Source: Candidatus Dadabacteria bacterium
GTDB taxonomy: Bacteria; Desulfobacterota_D; UBA1144; Nemesobacterales; Nemesobacteraceae
Direction of reading: 5' to 3'
DNA: 64,000 bases
Assembly: GCA_028823955.1 (NCBI GenBank)
Contig: JAPPFE010000016.1
Location: 76,497-140,496 of the forward strand
Shown: one piece after another, positions 4,859 to 30,803 of the stretch
Position numbering within the stretch: position 1 is the stretch's first letter
Layout of the letters: each line of letters begins with the position of its first letter
Program-made: the position numbers and the translations under genes
Notes under the pieces: generated by a model
What the model saw: the letters and a program-made list of their open reading frames with translations, nothing else
Database searches by the model: none
What the model was told of the DNA's origin: nothing

Positions 4859-7800
4859 GCGTCCGGTTTTTCGGTCACCTCAGCCGGACCCCGCGCCACG
4901 ATCACACCTTTATCCGGCATCCCGGTCGAGTCGGACTCTTCTAGCCCCAGCACTTCTATTTCCTCGAAACCCACGTCAGCAAGTACGCGGCGCCACACAG
5001 CTGGCTCCACCAAGGCGTGTTGCGGTCGGTAGGCATCGGCGAACCGCCACCAGCCGTCGAGCGGCCCGAAAGTCAGGTCCATCCAACCCATACCCCTCAG
5101 GTTCTCGAGCGCGACCATCTGTCCTGATGGCGCGAGAAGCCGCCGGCAGTGCGCAAGCGTCTCATCCAGGTATCGCGTGGCGTGCAGCACATTGGACGCA
5201 ATCACCAGGTCATAACCGTGGGAGTCGAATCCCTGCTCCACCGGATCTTTCTCGATATCCAGCATGCGGTAATCTATCGACGCTTCCTCGCCTCCGAAAC
5301 GTGCCTCTGCTTCCGCAAAGAAGCCCGCCGAGATATCCGTGTACATGTAGTCGAACCGTCCTTCCGGGAGTTCCGGCAGGATGGCCGCGGTTGCCGATCC
5401 TGTACCCGCCCCGACCTCGATCACCCTGAGGTGTCGGCCGTCGGGCAACCCCTCCACAAGAGTCTGAACCGTTTCTCGCAGTAGACGGTTCGCCGCACGC
5501 GCCACCGGGGCTTTTAGATACAGATCGCCCGGGGTCGGGTCTCCGCTGCTGAACAGGACCGTCAACGGGTCCGCTCGGCCCAGCAGGATGTCTGCCAAGG
5601 CGTTGCCAGACCGTCGAAAAAGCCCGATCTCGGTCAAGCCGTGGGGATATAGCTCAGCCATTCGGGTAGCGAATTCCTCGGTATCAGGCGGCATTTCATC
5701 CGGCAAGGGATCCCCGGGTCCGATCCTCACGACGAAGTCGCCGTCCACCTCCTCCAACACCCCGGACTTGGCCAGCATCTCGAGCGTCCGGCGGAACAAC
5801 TTCTTATGCTCCTCCACGACGTTTAAGCGCTGCCGCAATTCCTCTGAATCCACGGTCACGCCCACCTCGCGTTCCCACCCCAGCTTCTCCAAGGTCTCGA
5901 GCGCGCAGGACCGAGACCACCGCTCCAGGTCGGTCAGGAGGGCGCTTCTGTCTTTGGGCGTGACTCCTTCGTCGGCCAAATAATCTGAGAGCAGCCCCGA
6001 GCGCGCTGCAACCGTTGCCTGAGATGCGAGAAAATCTGCGGACAGCATTCCGGGCGGGAGAGTCCTTTCGCGCCACACAACCTCATACAGCAGTTCATTC
6101 ACCCCTTCGCCCGCGGAGAGCAGCGCCGCCCGCGTCGCGCGTTTCACCATGTATCCGCTCAGCCCGCCAAGCAGAACCCCGTTGGGATCGTAGATGCGCA
6201 ATTCTCCGTTCCAGACCTCAGGCGGCTCGTCCTGTTCCGTTTCTGTACCTTGGGAAACCTCACTCATGCGCACGTGACAGAACAGGCGATCCGGCAGCCG
6301 ATCCGCCAGCCACAGCCGCTCCCAGCCAAATGGTAGGTAGGTGGTTTCCTCTTCTATCCCGCCCGGATTGCGCGCTGCGGCCACAACCTGAAAGCAACCG
6401 TCGAGCAGGAGCGGATGAACGTCCAGCTCGTTGCGGCCGAGAGCTTCAGGAAAAGAAATCTCGCCTAACGCCTCGCCTGGCCGGGACCAGACCTTCCCGA
6501 GCGTACGGAAGAACGGGCCGAGATTGATACCCGTACCCGCCCGGGCACGGTAGTAGTCTGCCACGTCTATTGGTGACAGGGGGGTCTTGAGGCTTTCAAG
6601 ATCGATGCGGCTACCGGCTTCCGGCATGGGGGCACCCTGCGATATGTGGCCTTCCACGTGTGCCGTCCAGTCCTCTCCACTCCCCTTGCTGAATATCTGG
6701 ACACGACGCGAATTCGGCCGCTCGGAAGAATCAAGCACAACCTGCACCTTCCGGCCCTCGTCACCGGTACCGTTCTCGGAATCCTCCTTCGGGAAAACCA
6801 GCGCGTTGAGCAGTTGTATGTCCTCCACAACCACCGCGCCGCTTTCTTCCGTAAGGGATACCGATGCCGCCATGGCCCCGTAGAGCGCGCCCGGAGCTAT
6901 AACCCGGCCAAACACCCGGTGGTCGCTCAACCACTCCGGATCCGACTGGAACACTTCTGTCTCGAATGTGACCTCGCCTGTGGCGGATTCGTGCCGGACC
7001 CCCAGTAAGGGGTGGCCGACGCCCGAGCGCTGTTTTCTCTTCGAATCGAGCCAATGGCGTTCGCGTTGGAATGGATAGCTTGGCAGCGAGATGCGATGGC
7101 GTGCCTCCCCCGCAAAGAGCCCTTCAAAACGAATCGGGAGCCCCGCCTGATACGCTTCCGCGACGGCCTGCGTGAAATCGGCGCCATCCGCGGACGCTGG
7201 GGATTCACCAGACGGTGGGCGCAGACTCGACAGTACCATGGGCGCCGGTGTCTCTACCGAGTCCGGCCAGGCCGAGCGAGTCATCGTGGCCAGGATCGGT
7301 CTCGGCCCTATCTCCAACACCAGGTCCACCCCGAGTTCCGCCAACGTCTGGACACCGCGGGCAAATGCCACTTTCTCGCGGGCATGCTGCCTCCAGTAGG
7401 CTCCGTCCAGCGCCTGGCCAGGCTCCACCACTTGGCCAGTCAGGTTGCTGACCACGGTGAGGGAGGGTGGCTCGACCGCCACATTATCCAAGGAAGCTTC
7501 CAGCATGTCCAGAGCTGGCTCCACCAAGGCGCTGTGGAACGCGCGGGCCGTGTTCAGCCGTCTTACCCGGACTCCTTCCGATTCGAAACGCTTCGAGATG
7601 GCTTCAATTTCCGCAATCGGGCCGCTCACCACTTGGTGGGTGCCGTTGTCCGCCGAGATGCTCAGCCCAACACTGTCAGATGATTCGTTCAGCTCTTCGA
7701 CCGTCGACGCCACTCGTGCCGGAGTGGCAAAAACCGCTGCCATTGTGCCCGGTTCGGTTTCCGACAGCAGGGTGCCCCGTGCCGCGGCAAACCGCATTCC

Positions 7801-21862: not shown

Positions 21863-22086
21863 TCCGCCGTCCCGGGCCGCAAAGCGAAGATGCCTATCCC
21901 AAACGGTCTTAACTCCGGTTCTGGGGAGAGGTGCTTCTGGTAGGCGGCGGATACAGTAATAGCGAGCGGGATGACCACTCTCGGCTCAGGGAACGCACTT
22001 CCTTGTTTTTCCTTTTCTGTTAATGAATAATACGGGATAGTCAGCAAGCGTGCAGAATTTGAGTAGACGCTAATGGATGCGTCGAA

Positions 22087-25000
22087 ATGAAATCGGAAAA
22101 TTTTGAATTCCTCAGAGAACGTTGGCCGGAACTCGCCTCATTAGGTGGTTTTGCTGAATTTTACACCTATACGGATCCTACTAGCGCTCTGGTAAAGCTT
22201 AGATTGCTAGCTGAGAACCTTACCAGAGATATCTACAATGAACTTAGGTTTCCAAGACCTCCCCGCTCAAATTTCGTAAACCTTTTGGAAGAAGATACGT
22301 TTTGCACCTTCATTCCCAAAGTTCTGCTAAACAAGCTCCATGCGTTGCGCATACACGGCAATAAGGCTGCCCACGGAGAAACGACAGAACCGCGAACTGT
22401 GCTACGGCTTTTGAAAGAGGCACATGACTTAGCTCTTTGGCTTGCCGTGAATTTCGAGGAAGCTGACCCAGGCACATTGCCTTCGTTCAACCCGCCGTCG
22501 CCTGACCCTAGCATGTCAGCAGCGGAGAAGGCTAAGCTCGAAAAACTGGCGTCGCAGGAAGCGCAATTGAACGATTTATTGCTTGAATTGGATCAAGTGC
22601 GCGAAAGGGCTGAAACTGCCGAAAAGAAATCCGAGGAGCTTGAAGATCTGGCGGCTTCAGCGAAGACATCCACCGACCTTCTTGAATTCGATGAAGCAAC
22701 TACCCGGAGTCGGATCATTGACGGGCTTCTTGCTTCTGCTGGCTGGGATGTCGGTCCCGACTTGCAGACAACGGACAGCGTTGCGAAAGAATATGAGGTT
22801 GCTGATCAGCCGACGACAACGGGAAAGGGCTTCATTGATTATGTTCTGTGGGATGATGATGGAGCGCCGTTGGCGGTTATTGAAGCCAAGAAGACATCCG
22901 TTGAACCGGAACTCGGACGTAAACAGGCCAAGCTTTACGCGGACGCTCTGGAAAAGGCGCATGGACAGCGGCCAGTCATCTTCTACACGAATGGATACGA
23001 CATTTGGCTATGGGACGACATGGCGGGTTATCCACCAAGGAGGATTCACGGGTACTACTCCAAGGACAGTCTGCAGTATCTTGTGAAGTTCCAGCGGGGG
23101 AACCAGGAGGATATTTCGGTAATGTCGCCGCGAGAAACAATTGTTGACCGTCTTTATCAGATAGAGACAATTAAACGAGTTGCCGAGCGCTTTTTGTCTA
23201 AGCATCGAAAAGCATTGATCGTTCATGCCACAGGAACGGGCAAGACGCGTGTTGCCATTGCTCTTTCGGAACTGTTGATCCGCGCGGGATGGGCCAAGCG
23301 CGTGCTTTACCTCTGCGACCGGCGCGAACTGCGAAGGCAGGCGAAAAACGCGTTTACCGACTTTCTGCCTTCGGAACCAATCAGAATAGTCAATTCGCGA
23401 ATTCCAGGCGTGCCCAACGAACGCATTTTCATAGCCACTTACCCGGCTATGCTTAAAGTATACCAATCATTTGATGTCGGGTTTTTCGATCTCATCATTG
23501 CCGATGAGTCCCATCGAAGCATCTACAATGTCTACGGCGATCTTTTTCATTACTTCGACGCTTTGCAGGTGGGGTTAACCGCGACGCCGGTTGATTTTGT
23601 GACGCGCAGCACTTTCAATCTTTTTGATTGCCAGAGCCAGATGCCAACGTCCAACTACGACCTTGAACGAGCTGTCGAGGAAGGATACCTGGTGCCTTTT
23701 GAGGTATTTGAGCACACGACGAGATTTTTACGCGAAGGAATTCATTTAGATGGTTTGACCCAGGAACAAATTGCTGAGCTGGAAGAGCAAGGTGAAGACC
23801 CGTCGCAATATGACTTTGGTTCAGAGCAAATTGACAAGGATATTTACAACAAGGACACGAACAGGGCAATTCTCCGAAACCTTATGGAAAACGGTCTGAG
23901 AGAGGCAACTGCCCAAGTCGTTGGGAAGACGATAATTTTTGCGCGAAATCACAGGCACGCTGTACTCATGAATCGTCTTTTCGACGAGATGTATCCTCAA
24001 TATGGAGGCCAGTTTTGTCAGGTAATTGATAACTATGATCCGCGGGCCGAACAACTGATTGACGATTTCAAGGGAGAAGGAGACAACCAGAATCTGACGG
24101 TTGCTATATCGGTTGACATGCTTGACACCGGGATCGACGTTCCAGAAATTCTGAATCTCGTTTTTGCGAAACCCGTTCGTTCGCCTGTCAAATTCTGGCA
24201 GATGATCGGTCGCGGCACACGTCTCTGCCCAAATCTGCTCGGACCCGGAGAAGACAAAACAGTTTTTCGAATTTTCGATCACTGGGGCAATTTCGAGCGC
24301 TTCGAAACAGGTTATAAGCCTGCTGAGCCGCGACAGTCAAAGTCCCTTCTTCAGTTGCTGTTCGAGGAACGATTGAACCTTGCTGAGGCGGCGCTTAGAA
24401 AAAGCGAAGAGGATGTTTTTGACCAAGCCATTAGGCTTGTTGAAGCCGACATAGCCGATTTGCCGGAGGAGTCCGTTTCAGTTCGCGAGTGCTGGCGGGA
24501 GCGGCATTCAGTGCTTCAGGCGGACAGGCTTCGCCAATTTGCCCCCGTAACGGTTTCCATGCTCCGAACCGTCATCGCGCCCCTGATGCAGTGGCGTGCC
24601 AAACGTGGCCTAGGCGATGCCCACGCTTTCGACCTGCTGGTGACGCAGATGCAGACTGCGGTTTTGAACGAGACGGCGGCGCTTGCCGATCTCAAGGTAG
24701 ACTTCTTGGAGCGGGTTGAGCATCTTCAAATGCATTTAAATCCTGTTCGGGAGCGAGGCGAAATCATCAGGCGCGTCAAGTCAGAAGATTTCTGGAAAGA
24801 TGTTTCGGTTCAGGACCTGGAGTCTGTACGTGGTTCCTTGCGCGAAATAATTCATTACCATGATAAGCAGACAGGTGCCACCGTATCGCCTAAGATTATA
24901 GACGTTTCGGAGGAATCTGAGGGCATAGTTATTTCCCGGCGCAGAACTAATCTCAGAACCGTCGAAATGGAGGCTTATAAACATCTGGTGGAGGATGAAC

Positions 25001-25485
25001 TGAAGAAGCACTTCGAAACTAACCCCGTTCTCAAGAAGATACGCACCGGAGAAACTGTTACCAAGGAGGACCTTGAGTCTCTGGTGTCACTTGTGCTGAC
25101 GCAGAACCCGCATATTACACGAAAAGACCTGAACGAGTTTTTCCAAGCGACTGCTCAGCCACTTTACGTAACGATCCGTTCAATCGTTGGACTTGATCCC
25201 GGAGCCGTCAAGGCGAAATTTTCCGACTTGGTGCTGAAGAACCCTTTGCTGACGGCCAAGCAGACACGCTTCCTCACCCTTCTTCAGAACCATATAATAA
25301 AGTTCGGCTTCATTACGGTTGAAAAACTGTACGACCAGCCATTTACCGTTGTTGACGCCGATGGACCAGAAGGCGTTTTTGACAGGCCGGAGGACATTGA
25401 TGATCTAATAAAAATCGTTAATCTATTTGCACCGCCCCAAGAAGGCGGGGATGACGCTGACCAAGAAAACAGGATCATATACTGA
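22087..25485 (+). CDS. hsdR: Type I restriction enzyme HsdR with N-terminal DUF4145-like domain
   Basis: N-terminal [19 protein letters not shown] nuclease motif; [25 protein letters not shown] helicase motifs. Confidence 0.93.
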
Positions 25486-27008
25486 TGATTACAGGTGAAC
25501 TCAAACAGGACATTGATGCGCTCTGGCTTGAGTTTTGGCAGGGCGGAATCACCAACCCGCTGACGGTGATTGAGCAAATCACCTATCTCATGTTTGCGCG
25601 CTTGCTCGACGTGAATGAAACACGTGATGAGAATCGTGAGCGCCACAGTGGCAAAGCCTTCAAGCGGCGCTTCGGTGAGGACGAGCAGGATTTGCGCTGG
25701 TCGCATTTTCGGCATTTGGGGGCAAACGATATGCTATCTTTAGTGCGGGATGAAGTCTTCCCGCATTTCCGTAAGGCGTCCACCAGTGGCACTACCTTTA
25801 CTGAGTTTATGAAGGACGCACAGTTGATGATCCAGAAGCCGAGCCTTCTGGTCAAAGCCGTTAACATGATTCACAAGTTGCCACTGACCGAGGGGGATAC
25901 CAAAGGCGATCTTTATGAATACCTTCTCAGCAAACTGACGACTGCCGGGATTAACGGCCAATTCCGTACCCCGCGCCATATCATTCGTTTGATGGTGGAC
26001 ATGCTGGAACCGAAGCCAACAAATGTGATTGCCGACCCATCGGCAGGCACGGGCGGTTTTCTCGTTCAGGCGATGGAACATCTTATGGAGAAATTTACCT
26101 CGCCCGAGGGAGTGATCGAGGAAACCGATCCAGACACCGGAAAGAAATACAATATTTACACAGGTGATTTGCTTGAAGAACACCGAGAACATATCAGGAC
26201 CAGCATGTTCCATGGCTTTGACTTTGACACAACAATGCTACGCATTGCTGCTATGAACCTGATGCTGCACGACGTTGACGATCCGTACATCCATTATCAG
26301 GATACTCTCAGCAACAGTTTTGCTGAACGCTTCCCGAAGATGGCAAAAGAAGGTTTCGACATCGTTCTCGCCAATCCGCCGTTTAAGGGAAGTCTTGATT
26401 ATGAAGATGTGGATACGAACCTTCTGCGCCAAGTAAAAACAAAGAAAACGGAACTCTTGTTCCTAGTCCTGATCCTGCGCATGCTGAAGCTTGGAGGTCG
26501 GTCAGCGACTATTGTGCCGGACGGCGTGTTGTTTGGCTCGTCAATGGCTCATGTCACATTGCGTAAATTGCTGATTGATAAAAACCAACTTGAAGCTGTT
26601 ATTTCTTTGCCCAGCGGAGTCTTCAAACCCTATGCGGGTGTATCGACTGGTATTCTGGTTTTCACCAAGGGAGGATGCACGGACAATGTATTTTTCTATG
26701 ATGTACAAGCCGATGGTTTCTCACTTGATGACAAGCGTGACCCGGTTGATTCTAATGATCTGCCGAACTGTCTTGCCCGCTGGCAGGCGCGTGATCCAAA
26801 GAAAGATGTTGATCGTAAGGACAAGGCCTTTTTCGTGAATGCCGAGGAGATTTGCAGGGCCAATTATGACCTTTCATTAAGCCGCTATAAGGAGCGGGTT
26901 TATAATGAAGAAAAGCATGATCCACCAAAAGTTATTCTGGAGCGAATGAAAATACTGAATGACGATATCGCTAATGATCTCTCCGAATTGGAAGAGGTGC
27001 TTCGATGA
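25485..27008 (+). CDS. hsdM: Type I DNA methyltransferase subunit HsdM
   Basis: [14 protein letters not shown] and NPPFKG (N6-adenine MTase motifs); 1-nt overlap with hsdR. Confidence 0.96.
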
Positions 27009-28105
27009 GTGAAACGATACCACTTGGAGAAGTTGTCGATGTTTTTGCTGGACAGCCTGCACCTAAACCGAATGAATTTTCGGATCATGGTTATCCGTTC
27101 ATCCGAGCAGGAAGCTTGGAAAGTCTGTTAAAAGGCTCTTCCGAGAACGATTGTGAGAAAGTTTCCTCTAGCGTTGCACGAAACCGACGTTTGAAGCTTT
27201 TTCCGAAAGACACGGTTATCTTTGCCAAGAGTGGAATGTCAGCAAAAATTGGGCGTATCTATCGGCTGCGCCAACCGTCTTATGTTGTTAGTCACCTTGC
27301 AACGCTTGTTCCAACAGGGAAATACGACCCTTCCTTCTTGACGCACTGGCTAAGATGGCACCCTCCATCAGACCTTATCAATGATAATGCTTATCCTTCT
27401 ATACGAATCTCTGCAATTGCCGGACTCAAAGTGCCTAATTTACCCATTTATAAACAACGCCGGATTTCTGCCATCCTAGATAAAACCGATACCATTCGCC
27501 ACAAGCGGGAACAAACCTTGTTCTTAGCCCACAACCTATTGAAATCTGTCTTCTTGGAGATGTTCGGAAACCCTCTGACCAATTCTAAGCAGTTTCCAAC
27601 CATTGCACTCGGTGATTTGATCAGAGTGTCAAGTGGCAATGGACTGACAGCCAAAGATATGAATCCGTCCGGGCCTTACCCAGTTTATGGAGGCAATGGA
27701 ATAAGCGGGTTTCATTCAGAATACATGTTTGATGATCCCCAACTCGTGATTGGAAGAGTCGGGATTTATTGTGGAGCAGTTCACGCAACTCAGCCAAAAT
27801 CCTGGGTAACAGATAATGCGTTATATATTCGAGAATACAAAAGACCAGTTAATCTAACATATCTTGAATGGGCGTTGCGATTTGCAGACCTCAACCAATA
27901 CGCAAACCAAGCTGCACAACCTCTAATTTCAGGAAGTCGAATATATCCAATTGAGATTCTCTTTCCGAGCGAATTAGAACAAGATACATTTGCAGCTTAT
28001 GTGGAGAGACAAAAGCGACTTTTAAACCATCTTGAAGCGAGTTGTAAAAAAGCAAATGATCTCTTTGCCTCTCTTTCCCAACGTGCCTTCCGTGGCGATT
28101 TATAA
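27005..28105 (+). CDS. hsdS: Type I specificity subunit HsdS (two TRDs)
   Basis: Two TRD-like halves with conserved helical spacers; ATGA overlap with hsdM. Confidence 0.93.
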
Positions 28106-28113
28106 GAAATGCA

Positions 28114-29835
28114 ATGCGACTGAGACGGATCGAAATCGAAAACTTCAAAGGAATTGGCAAACGTCAGGCAATTGACCTCAAGCCGATCACTTTGCTGTTT
28201 GGGCCGAACAACGCAGGCAAAAGCACAATTCTGCAAGTACTACACTATATGCGGGAATTACTTGAACGCCAGAACCCGGACCCCGATCAAACTATCGCAG
28301 GTGGCCTTATCGATCTTGGTGGATTCAGGGCGTTAGTCCACAATCACGAGTTGAATCGTGCCATCACAATTAAGCTCGTGATTGATCTGTCGGAGGATCT
28401 GGGGAATGACCGGCTACCGCTTAATTCCGGCATACATCTCGGCGATACTGAATTTGCTAATCTCGATATCCTCTACATCTTTGGCGGAGACACCGATTTT
28501 AACAAACACGCCGTTGTGCAAGAACTCGGTGTTATGGTTGAGGTATGCTGGAGTGATTTGCTCATGGGTCCCTATGTCTCTTTGCTTTCCCTAGATATGA
28601 ATGGCATCCAGATTCTGTCAATCAAATCGCCACCGCAGAAAGGACGCGCAATTATCACTGATTTTAATTTTGAACACCCGCTACTTCAGCGGATCATTTA
28701 TCAAGATGATATTGTAGAGGATGACGAGTTGTATCAGGGAGATTTACCCGGACACATTGATGAAGGTGACCCGTTTTCGTCGCCGCTTGGGGCTGAGATT
28801 TGGGAACTCTCCCGTGATATGGCAAAAGGAACTCCAACCTTTGCGGAAGATAACTTTAGGGTGACCGTCTCTACTCCAATGGGAGCCTTGCCGAACCCGA
28901 ATAAGCCTCTGGACTTAGAATTACGCGACCCCGAAGTTGACAAGCCTGAACTAGAACAGAGCACGTCTCGCGTTAGGGGACTGGCAACGTTACTTGACGA
29001 ACTGGTTCTCGGGCCGGTACGCGTTGCGAATGACTACTTAAGCGGCATGACCTATATAGGTCCCTTGCGCGAAATCCCCACCCGAAACTTCCGACCACGC
29101 CTTTCGCCTGATGAATCGCGCTGGGCGCGAGGTCTTGCAGCGTGGGATCTGCTGTATTCTGATGTCAAAGGCGATCTTGTCGATGCCGTTAACCAATGGC
29201 TTGGCGATGAGGCCAAGTTGCGCACCGGCTACCAGTTGGAAAGGGTCGTTTTCCGCGAGATACCTGTACCGAGTCGGCTGAGTTTTCTGTTTGAGCGCGG
29301 CCTGACCGAAGACGATCTCGGCGAACTGCAGGAGCTTTACGAGAATCTGGAAACCCGGGTAGAAGTTGCGTTGCGTGATTTTGAAAAAGACATTCTTGTT
29401 GCTCCCGATGATATTGGCGTCGGCATTTCACAAATGATCCCGGTCGTTGTTGGATGCCTCACCGACAGCGTCAACTTCCTTGCGGTGGAACAGCCCGAAC
29501 TCCACATTCATCCAGCGCTGCAGGTTGCTATGGGCGATCTCCTGATCCGCTCGGCCTTCAGCAACAAGTCTGATTTCCTGTCCGCCAAATCTCTTCTCGT
29601 GGAAACGCACAGCGAGCATATTATGCTACGCTTGCTGCGCCGAATCAGGGAGACATTCGAAGGCGAACTGGCTCCTGGTACCCCGTCTCTTACCCCAGAC
29701 GCTGTTTCCGTCATCTATGTTGAAGCCGGCGAAGACTGCGTGAAGTTTTACTCGCTTAGGATTGACGAGGAAGGGGAATTTGTTGACCGCTGGCCACGAG
29801 GCTTCTTCGACGAACGCGTGGAGGAGCTTTTTTAG
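28114..29835 (+). CDS. AAA ATPase with C-terminal DUF3696-like region
   Basis: GPNNAGKSTILQ Walker A; FLAVEQPELHIHPALQ Walker B; C-terminal EEGEFVDRWPRGFFDER. Confidence 0.85.
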   Translation: MRLRRIEIENFKGIGKRQAIDLKPITLLFGPNNAGKSTILQVLHYMRELLERQNPDPDQTIAGGLIDLGGFRALVHNHELNRAITIKLVIDLSEDLGNDRLPLNSGIHLGDTEFANLDILYIFGGDTDFNKHAVVQELGVMVEVCWSDLLMGPYVSLLSLDMNGIQILSIKSPPQKGRAIITDFNFEHPLLQRIIYQDDIVEDDELYQGDLPGHIDEGDPFSSPLGAEIWELSRDMAKGTPTFAEDNFRVTVSTPMGALPNPNKPLDLELRDPEVDKPELEQSTSRVRGLATLLDELVLGPVRVANDYLSGMTYIGPLREIPTRNFRPRLSPDESRWARGLAAWDLLYSDVKGDLVDAVNQWLGDEAKLRTGYQLERVVFREIPVPSRLSFLFERGLTEDDLGELQELYENLETRVEVALRDFEKDILVAPDDIGVGISQMIPVVVGCLTDSVNFLAVEQPELHIHPALQVAMGDLLIRSAFSNKSDFLSAKSLLVETHSEHIMLRLLRRIRETFEGELAPGTPSLTPDAVSVIYVEAGEDCVKFYSLRIDEEGEFVDRWPRGFFDERVEELF

Positions 29836-30779
29836 TGTATCGGGAGTACGCTGTCGAACCGGCCGCCATAGGATCAAGCTGGGGAACTTTCCGTTACCTT
29901 ATCGAGAAATTCGGCTTCCAGAAAGGTCGATTGATTTCCCGGTTTCCTTCAAGATGGGAACGCTTGGTTATTGAGGCGGCAAAGATGGCAGGTGTAGGTG
30001 ATATAGCCTTATCCAGAATTACGGAAAAGTTAAGGAAAAAGAAAGAAGAAGAAATTAAGATTGTCAATTCGGGTCGTATTTACGATCCGAGTCTTGGCAG
30101 TTGGATCGCAAGTGCCCGTGTTGCGCATGCTGTAAAACCTTTCCATGCCATTATCGCGCAAGGTGACCATGAAGAGAATGAGATTGTTACTCCCGAAGAA
30201 TTAGAGGAAGATCACCCACTTATGATCGCTTCTACAAGCTGCAATGTCCCGCGAACAAGCAAAAGGCTTGCTGAGGCCCTTCTGCCTCTCCTTCTTTCTG
30301 CGCGAGAAGTTGATATTGTTGATCCCTTCTTTGACCTCCAGAACTCAAAATATACAAACCTCTTGAGTCTGTTGCTTTCATCAATGTACAACTCGAGGAA
30401 AAATAAAGAAAAAACTCTGCTTATCAGGATCCACTTTCGCTTAGATGAAGGCGATCCAAGAGAACAGTTTCTTCTTGAAAATGCACACAGATGGGTACGT
30501 GGCTGGCTTCTCGAAGGCTTCGAGTTGCACCTGTATGAATGGAAACAGAAACCCGGCGGTGAAGACTTTCATGCTCGTCTTCTCTTATGCGATTGTGGCG
30601 GGTTGGCAGTCGATGCGGGCTTCGCGGCAGTCGGACAACATGAAAGCACCATTATCACTCTGCTTGATTATCAGCATGTCCAGAGATTGCGGAAAAATTT
30701 TGCAGTTGGAGCGACGGTTTATGATAAGGCCGGAAATGCAGTTCGAATTAGGTCAAATGGAGAAACAGAGACACTCTAA
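29835..30779 (+). CDS. Uncharacterised protein coupled to the DUF3696 ATPase; degenerate single PLD-like motif HARLLLCD
   Basis: GTG start overlapping the TAG stop of the ATPase; HxRx4D near C-terminus (30570-30593). Confidence 0.6.
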   Translation: MYREYAVEPAAIGSSWGTFRYLIEKFGFQKGRLISRFPSRWERLVIEAAKMAGVGDIALSRITEKLRKKKEEEIKIVNSGRIYDPSLGSWIASARVAHAVKPFHAIIAQGDHEENEIVTPEELEEDHPLMIASTSCNVPRTSKRLAEALLPLLLSAREVDIVDPFFDLQNSKYTNLLSLLLSSMYNSRKNKEKTLLIRIHFRLDEGDPREQFLLENAHRWVRGWLLEGFELHLYEWKQKPGGEDFHARLLLCDCGGLAVDAGFAAVGQHESTIITLLDYQHVQRLRKNFAVGATVYDKAGNAVRIRSNGETETL

Positions 30780-30803
30780 CTTAAAGATATCCGAACAGCA
30801 GGC

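Follow-up and report, generated by a model that had tools for sequence, protein, structure and literature searches.

A type I restriction-modification operon of Candidatus Dadabacteria carries a two-gene add-on, probably a portable ATPase-effector dyad

Several described systems come close to the arrangement presented here. In a survey of BREX systems, dyads of an OLD-type ABC ATPase and a nuclease were described as backup effectors, while the HKD domain was listed on BrxL and on BR helicases and not in an OLD dyad, and its K-to-R variant on BrxL, termed 'HRD', was taken by inference as a likely active DNase (PMC12839542). One such dyad, PtuAB, serves both as Septu and as the effector of a retron (PMC11555353). 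Furthermore, WYL regulators of the BrxR type adjoin type I restriction-modification (R-M) enzymes (34/210; PMC9122601).

The window, i.e. the whole analysed stretch of 64,000 nucleotides from a Candidatus Dadabacteria bacterium (contig JAPPFE010000016.1, positions 76,497 to 140,496), contains five consecutive genes in which HsdR, HsdM and HsdS of a type I R-M system, all with intact domains, are followed by an ATPase and a partner protein (Table 1). The first-pass annotation had read these genes as a single operon flanked by recA and tsaB, with no mobile-element gene. Recomputed coordinates agree with that reading: all genes lie on the plus strand, hsdR and hsdM overlap by 1 nt, hsdM and hsdS by 4 nt, hsdS and the ATPase gene are separated by 8 nt, the ATPase and partner genes share a 1-nt stop/start overlap (TAGTG), and no mobile-element gene was seen. 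All five reading frames are open, with no broken gene according to the domain matches. The DUF4145-like domain noted earlier on HsdR was confirmed by Pfam above the cut-off (residues 28-102); it precedes the HSDR_N nuclease region and the ResIII helicase, with EcoEI_R_C at the C-terminus, and this order of DUF4145, HSDR_N and EcoEI_R_C marks the R-M enzyme as EcoEI/EcoAI-like. A promoter scan of the recA-hsdR spacer gave no sigma-70 consensus promoter, nothing scoring above chance. As no terminator was found in the short gap before tsaB, read-through from the cassette into tsaB may occur.

Table 1. Features of the R-M operon and its flanking spacers (window coordinates).
Feature	Coordinates	Strand	Evidence
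hsdR, type I restriction/translocase subunit, 1132 aa	22087..25485	+	PADLOC REase_I 2e-294; Pfam
hsdM, type I N6-adenine methyltransferase subunit, 507 aa	25485..27008	+	PADLOC MTase_I 2e-178; Pfam N6_Mtase 1e-60, HsdM_N
hsdS, specificity subunit, 366 aa	27005..28105	+	Pfam Methylase_S, 2 stretches
OLD/ABC-type ATPase, DUF3696 tail, 573 aa	28114..29835	+	Pfam AAA_15/AAA_21 + DUF3696
Partner, 314 aa, GTG start	29835..30779	+	AF2 model, Foldseek, hhalign
recA-hsdR spacer, 224 nt	21863..22086		
Partner-tsaB gap, 24 nt	30780..30803		

The cassette occupies a site that is empty in ten relatives. In all ten genomes of the same genus with a readable recA neighbourhood and no cassette, recA and tsaB are adjacent, 88-94 nt apart in eight genomes and about 280 nt apart in two, and one of these empty sites belongs to a genome with recA 98% identical to that of the genome studied here. 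Another Candidatus Dadabacteria MAG of the genus (locus L016) holds the cassette at the identical recA-tsaB site and has the same recA-hsdR spacer, which shows no obvious alignment with the spacers of empty sites. Between these two cassettes HsdR, HsdM and the ATPase are 88-92% identical (HsdR and the ATPase 92%), whereas HsdS is only 21% identical to its L016 counterpart (6089-7270), so that hsdS was replaced between the congeners. No integrase was seen at the locus. Nearly identical cassettes (99.7% over 17.2 kb) are present in two different genera, Acidomonas and Pleomorphomonas (L033 and L038), which suggests recent transfer in these lineages, or possibly shared contamination. In L033, L037 and L038, a small DUF2188-like gene and a TIR-domain-like gene were observed downstream of the partner. 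The locus is best read as a type I R-M operon that moves horizontally and carries a fixed two-gene add-on.

In regard to the wider distribution of the pair, 84,980 species genomes, scanned with an alignment of three close partner sequences, yielded 23 partner relatives, 21 of them preceded by co-directional type I R-M genes (two of these loci, L027 and L037, carry damaged genes), and R-M genes with the pair were also found on plasmids of Methylocella, Azotobacter and Vibrio, adding three loci. Evenly drawn samples were searched too, against a bias towards close relatives: among 399 evenly drawn Pseudomonadota genomes the partner was present in 12, with hsdS upstream in all eight readable cases, and among 397 genomes of one family it was present in eight, with R-M genes in all six readable cases. 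Altogether, 34 loci from Dadabacteria, proteobacteria and plasmids, the present one included, show type I R-M followed by the pair in the same five-gene order; five contexts are of another kind and five, at contig ends, are unreadable. The one-base overlap of ATPase and partner genes is found in 21 of 21 R-M loci checked, and the gap between hsdS and the ATPase gene measures 6-9 nt in 18 of the 21 (exactly 9 nt in 16). A pattern scan for viral relatives of the partner found none. The linkage of the pair to R-M is not accidental, and the pair's homologues are not randomly distributed, given type I R-M upstream in 34/39 readable contexts and, among the other five, a pAgo locus plus two with type III-D CRISPR. 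The loci also vary in their regulators, since a WYL regulator overlaps hsdR in many of them, the Vibrio locus has a CARF RtcR-type regulator, and those of Azotobacter and Roseovarius have a sigma-54 activator, as judged from annotation or from sequence; unlike many of these, the present hsdR has no neighbouring regulator gene.

Pairwise distances of the ATPase track HsdR and HsdM (Mantel r 0.84 and 0.86, respectively), and do so when the four most divergent loci are left out (r 0.57 and 0.60, p 0.0005), while no tracking was found between ATPase and HsdS (r 0.08). HsdR, HsdM and the ATPase are thus inherited together. With the same four loci left out, the partner barely tracks the other proteins (r 0.14-0.28), and in the alphaproteobacterial set its distances do not track the ATPase (r 0.14), so that partners may be exchanged. 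HsdS, and to a degree the partner, appear from these comparisons to be swapped or fast-evolving.

The pair is not confined to R-M operons, which modifies the earlier claim that ATPase and partner are tied to R-M: the tie stands in the 34 loci, but it is not specific, as the pair is portable. A pAgo gene (PADLOC 1e-29; CpAgo 1e-6) precedes the pair on a plasmid of Deinococcus. Two Chloroflexota genomes (G948 and G1431), whose partners are 30% identical, carry the pair within a type III-D CRISPR operon, with TIGR03986/Csx19/Cas7/Csx10/Cas10 genes on one side and Cas6 on the other; the type III-D assignment comes from named models in G948, and in G1431 solely from the order of the genes and their sequence similarity. 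The pair follows an RtcR-like activator in an Anaerolineaceae contig, and in a Pseudomonadales MAG (L035) it stands without R-M, pAgo, CRISPR or any other recogniser. Conversely, related R-M operons hold other genes in the slot behind hsdS, namely JukAB in P. luteola (JukA 2e-28, JukB 4e-142), PDC-M09A in Vitreoscilla, and, on the E. coli plasmid pMTY18781-2, a 228-aa gene beside Dsr1 (L055, 9859-10545) that has no Pfam or PADLOC match. The slot is therefore exchangeable in related R-M operons.

Additional genes between hsdS and the ATPase were observed in some loci. In L018 (4862-7286), L031 (6277-7257), L024 (6552-7112) and L053 (6385-8835) they encode NucS/DUF5655-like, GIY-YIG-like, and EVE + MUG113 proteins, possibly a modification-dependent add-on. 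In another subtype, seen in the Pseudomonadota sample (L080, L081, L083, L084, L086 and L087), this position is taken by genes for a ParE-like toxin and AbiJ_NTD4 and by small antitoxin-like genes.

Such variety also fits mere co-regulated neighbours. The slot could be a cargo site and the pair an independent anti-phage system which has promoter and mobility in common with the R-M genes but a separate mechanism, as would agree with JukAB, PDC-M09A or another gene in the slot of the same HsdRMS lineage, with the extra cargo (EVE/GIY-YIG-like, NucS-like, ParE, AbiJ-NTD) in some loci, and with the pair standing alone in L035. However, the evolution of the ATPase tracks HsdR and HsdM, the junction spacing is kept across phyla, three of the five readable contexts other than R-M are guided nucleic-acid systems, and a free-standing system would be expected alone more often. 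We regard this explanation as doubtful, and some sort of coupling between the pair and R-M as rather likely.

The first protein of the pair had been described as a DUF3696-like AAA ATPase. Its DUF3696 tail (residues 526-573, with the conserved WPxGFFxERxxELF) and AAA_15/AAA_21 matches uphold this description, which can now be refined to an OLD/ABC-type ATPase nearest to NsnB and PDC-M55A. Among the PADLOC matches listed, PDC-M55A (9e-42) and NsnB (3e-40) are the best and AriA is a weaker relative (5e-21); NsnB is also the best match of the ATPases adjoining pAgo and type III-D genes. The motifs are intact (Walker A at residues 30-38, signature GVGISQ at 435-440, Walker B at 455-462 and ETHSEH at 497-502), and no TOPRIM match was obtained for this protein. 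The fold of the predicted model (mean pLDDT 77) matches GajA, OLD, the retron-Eco8 effector, PtuAB and SMC heads.

Neither Pfam, NCBIfam nor PADLOC gave a match for the partner. Its AF2 model (pLDDT 88.5) shows a family-less N-terminal domain (about residues 1-135) and a C-terminal MIT_C/PLD-like domain (about 148-270). Within residues 1-135 (29835-30239) a strongly conserved block, EYAVEPxAIxxxW...FGxxxGRLxSxxP, was observed, and this domain may contact the ATPase. Foldseek matched the model to phospholipase D, SauUSI and PLD3 with probability 1.00, the E value being only about 1e-4 and the TM score about 0.35; Argonaute matches (probability <=0.57, TM about 0.2 or lower) were taken as noise. 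The C-terminal part aligned by hhalign with a bacterial MIT_C domain, the C-terminus of BrxL (probability 93.5, E 2e-7), pairing VDPYF and HARxLLTD-GG. Human MITD1 (2ymb) is a solved relative of that BrxL domain. The MIT_C of MITD1 is a membrane-binding domain and is not known to be catalytic. Judged from the model and these alignments, the C-terminal half of the partner belongs to the PLD superfamily, closest to MIT_C. In the same genus, a BrxL with a C-terminal MIT_C was observed in another genome (L108, 97-1968, in G025), which suggests BREX in the genus.

D163, H246, R248 and G262 are invariant among partners at 19-30% identity, and the H and R of H246-x-R248 are invariant in every partner of three alignments. 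The HxK(x)4D(x)6GSxN motif is not present in the partner: HxR replaces HxK, the following D is variable and GSxN is absent, and the chain has no second HxK. These changes, together with MIT_C, as in MITD1, being the closest domain, would suit a non-catalytic partner, i.e. a MITD1-like domain binding a membrane, a DNA end or a phosphorylated ligand and targeting an active ATPase. Invariance of H and R in every aligned partner is, on the other hand, what an active site would require, and the same HRD domain on BrxL has been taken as a DNase (PMC12839542), so we consider a purely binding role unlikely.

The pair is probably an ATPase-effector dyad that is portable, is linked most frequently to type I R-M and serves as a backup effector. 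As an explanation of the whole locus, we tentatively favour a dyad added on to the type I R-M system and acting as a second line of defence. It is supported by the fixed gene order and conserved junctions in the 34 loci, by the ATPase tracking HsdR/HsdM but not HsdS, by its intact motifs and its GajA/OLD/retron-Eco8/PtuAB fold, by the PLD fold of the MIT_C-like partner with invariant D163/H246/R248, by the precedents of the BREX survey, PrrC with type I R-M, and PtuAB, and by the occurrence of the pair with other nucleic-acid recognisers (pAgo and type III-D). Arg in place of the catalytic Lys of HKD, the absent GSxN and the MITD1 relative argue against it, as do the lack of tracking between partner and ATPase in the alphaproteobacterial set, the other genes found in the slot of related R-M operons and the pair in L035. 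In this favoured scheme, ATPase and partner would most likely make up a dyad comparable to GajA, PtuAB or AriAB. The ATPase would sense and hold, by analogy with PrrC, PARIS, Septu/retron and BREX dyads, and its switching would let the partner, the putative effector, act on a phosphodiester of DNA or RNA. The R-M enzyme would give target discrimination or be the guarded component, and the trigger could, speculatively, be restriction products or stalling (DNA ends, translocating complexes) or a blocked R-M enzyme. The outcome would be a second line of defence, probably an abortive one.

An alternative, in which the R-M enzyme silences the dyad until phage anti-restriction proteins (Ocr, Stp and ArdA types) free it, has precedents in PrrC, which is held by its linked type I R-M enzyme in EcoprrI and freed by Stp (PMC2610378), and in PARIS, whose AriA, a relative of this ATPase, senses Ocr (PMC12839542), but no sensor motif was identified and an anti-restriction trigger does not explain the pair beside pAgo or type III-D CRISPR, so that this alternative seems improbable. 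The readings overlap, and the confidence given to each need not total one.

The pair resembles a so far uncharacterised immune module of plug-in type which connects three types of defence, namely type I R-M, pAgo and type III-D CRISPR, and a partner family that had no function gains a fold and a candidate active site. That the pair could be a general plug-in effector, recruited separately by each of the three and turning restriction in R-M operons into a two-stage, cell-level response, is a speculative extension that we put forward with little confidence. The locus makes it possible to test directly whether a second effector is called on by type I R-M systems, a question for which PrrC has until now been the main case. 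We found no published link of DUF3696 with type I restriction and no literature joining PLD, AAA, Argonaute and type III, although an earlier mention of the pair is possible.

With PADLOC, the two genes gave no exact match to a named system, Menshen, PARIS, Gabija and Septu included. Menshen is similar in that the ATPase belongs to the NsnB family and in its two-gene layout, an NsnB-like DUF3696 ATPase usually adjoining NsnC of about 305 aa. It differs in that the pair is led here by R-M and not by NsnA, which was absent among the matches listed for the five proteins. NsnC occurs in 19 of the 399 Pseudomonadota genomes; the 12 NsnC loci that were examined have an ATPase matching the profile of the present one, usually directly beside NsnC. 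NsnC had no match in the 23 partners, and identity of the partner with NsnC, and thus an exact Menshen system, was rejected by profile comparison (hhalign probability 0.3%, E 0.21). Since NsnC and the partner are non-homologous and stand beside related ATPases, the DUF3696 ATPase appears as a common core with varied partners of about 300 aa. PARIS was rejected as AriA is only a weaker relative and the partner has no TOPRIM or AriB match, and Gabija and Septu as neither TOPRIM nor HNH was found and the partner lacks a PADLOC match.

BrxL with a C-terminal HKD/'HRD' domain from type 1 BREX resembles the partner in the MIT_C-type domain and the K-to-R change (PMC12839542). Unlike this BrxL domain, the partner is encoded on its own and has an additional domain at its N-terminus, is accompanied by an ABC ATPase and is not fused to the BrxL AAA+, and the locus has no BREX genes. 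PrrC/EcoprrI and Campylobacter rlo likewise place ABC-ATPase effector genes inside type I hsd genes or next to them (PMC2610378), but PrrC and RloC are single-chain tRNases, and such a motif was not seen here. JukAB takes the same slot behind hsdS in the related P. luteola operon; its proteins are different, and no Juk model was among the matches listed for the pair. The layout found here, an OLD-type ATPase with an adjacent, translationally coupled putative effector, is that of the OLD-ABC/nuclease dyads (PARIS AriAB, Septu PtuAB, Gabija, and BREX OLD-ABC with HNH, REase or PIN). The partner sets the pair apart, being of PLD/MIT_C type and not TOPRIM, HNH, REase or PIN, while the separate putative effector and the proposed backup role beside a restriction system are common to both.
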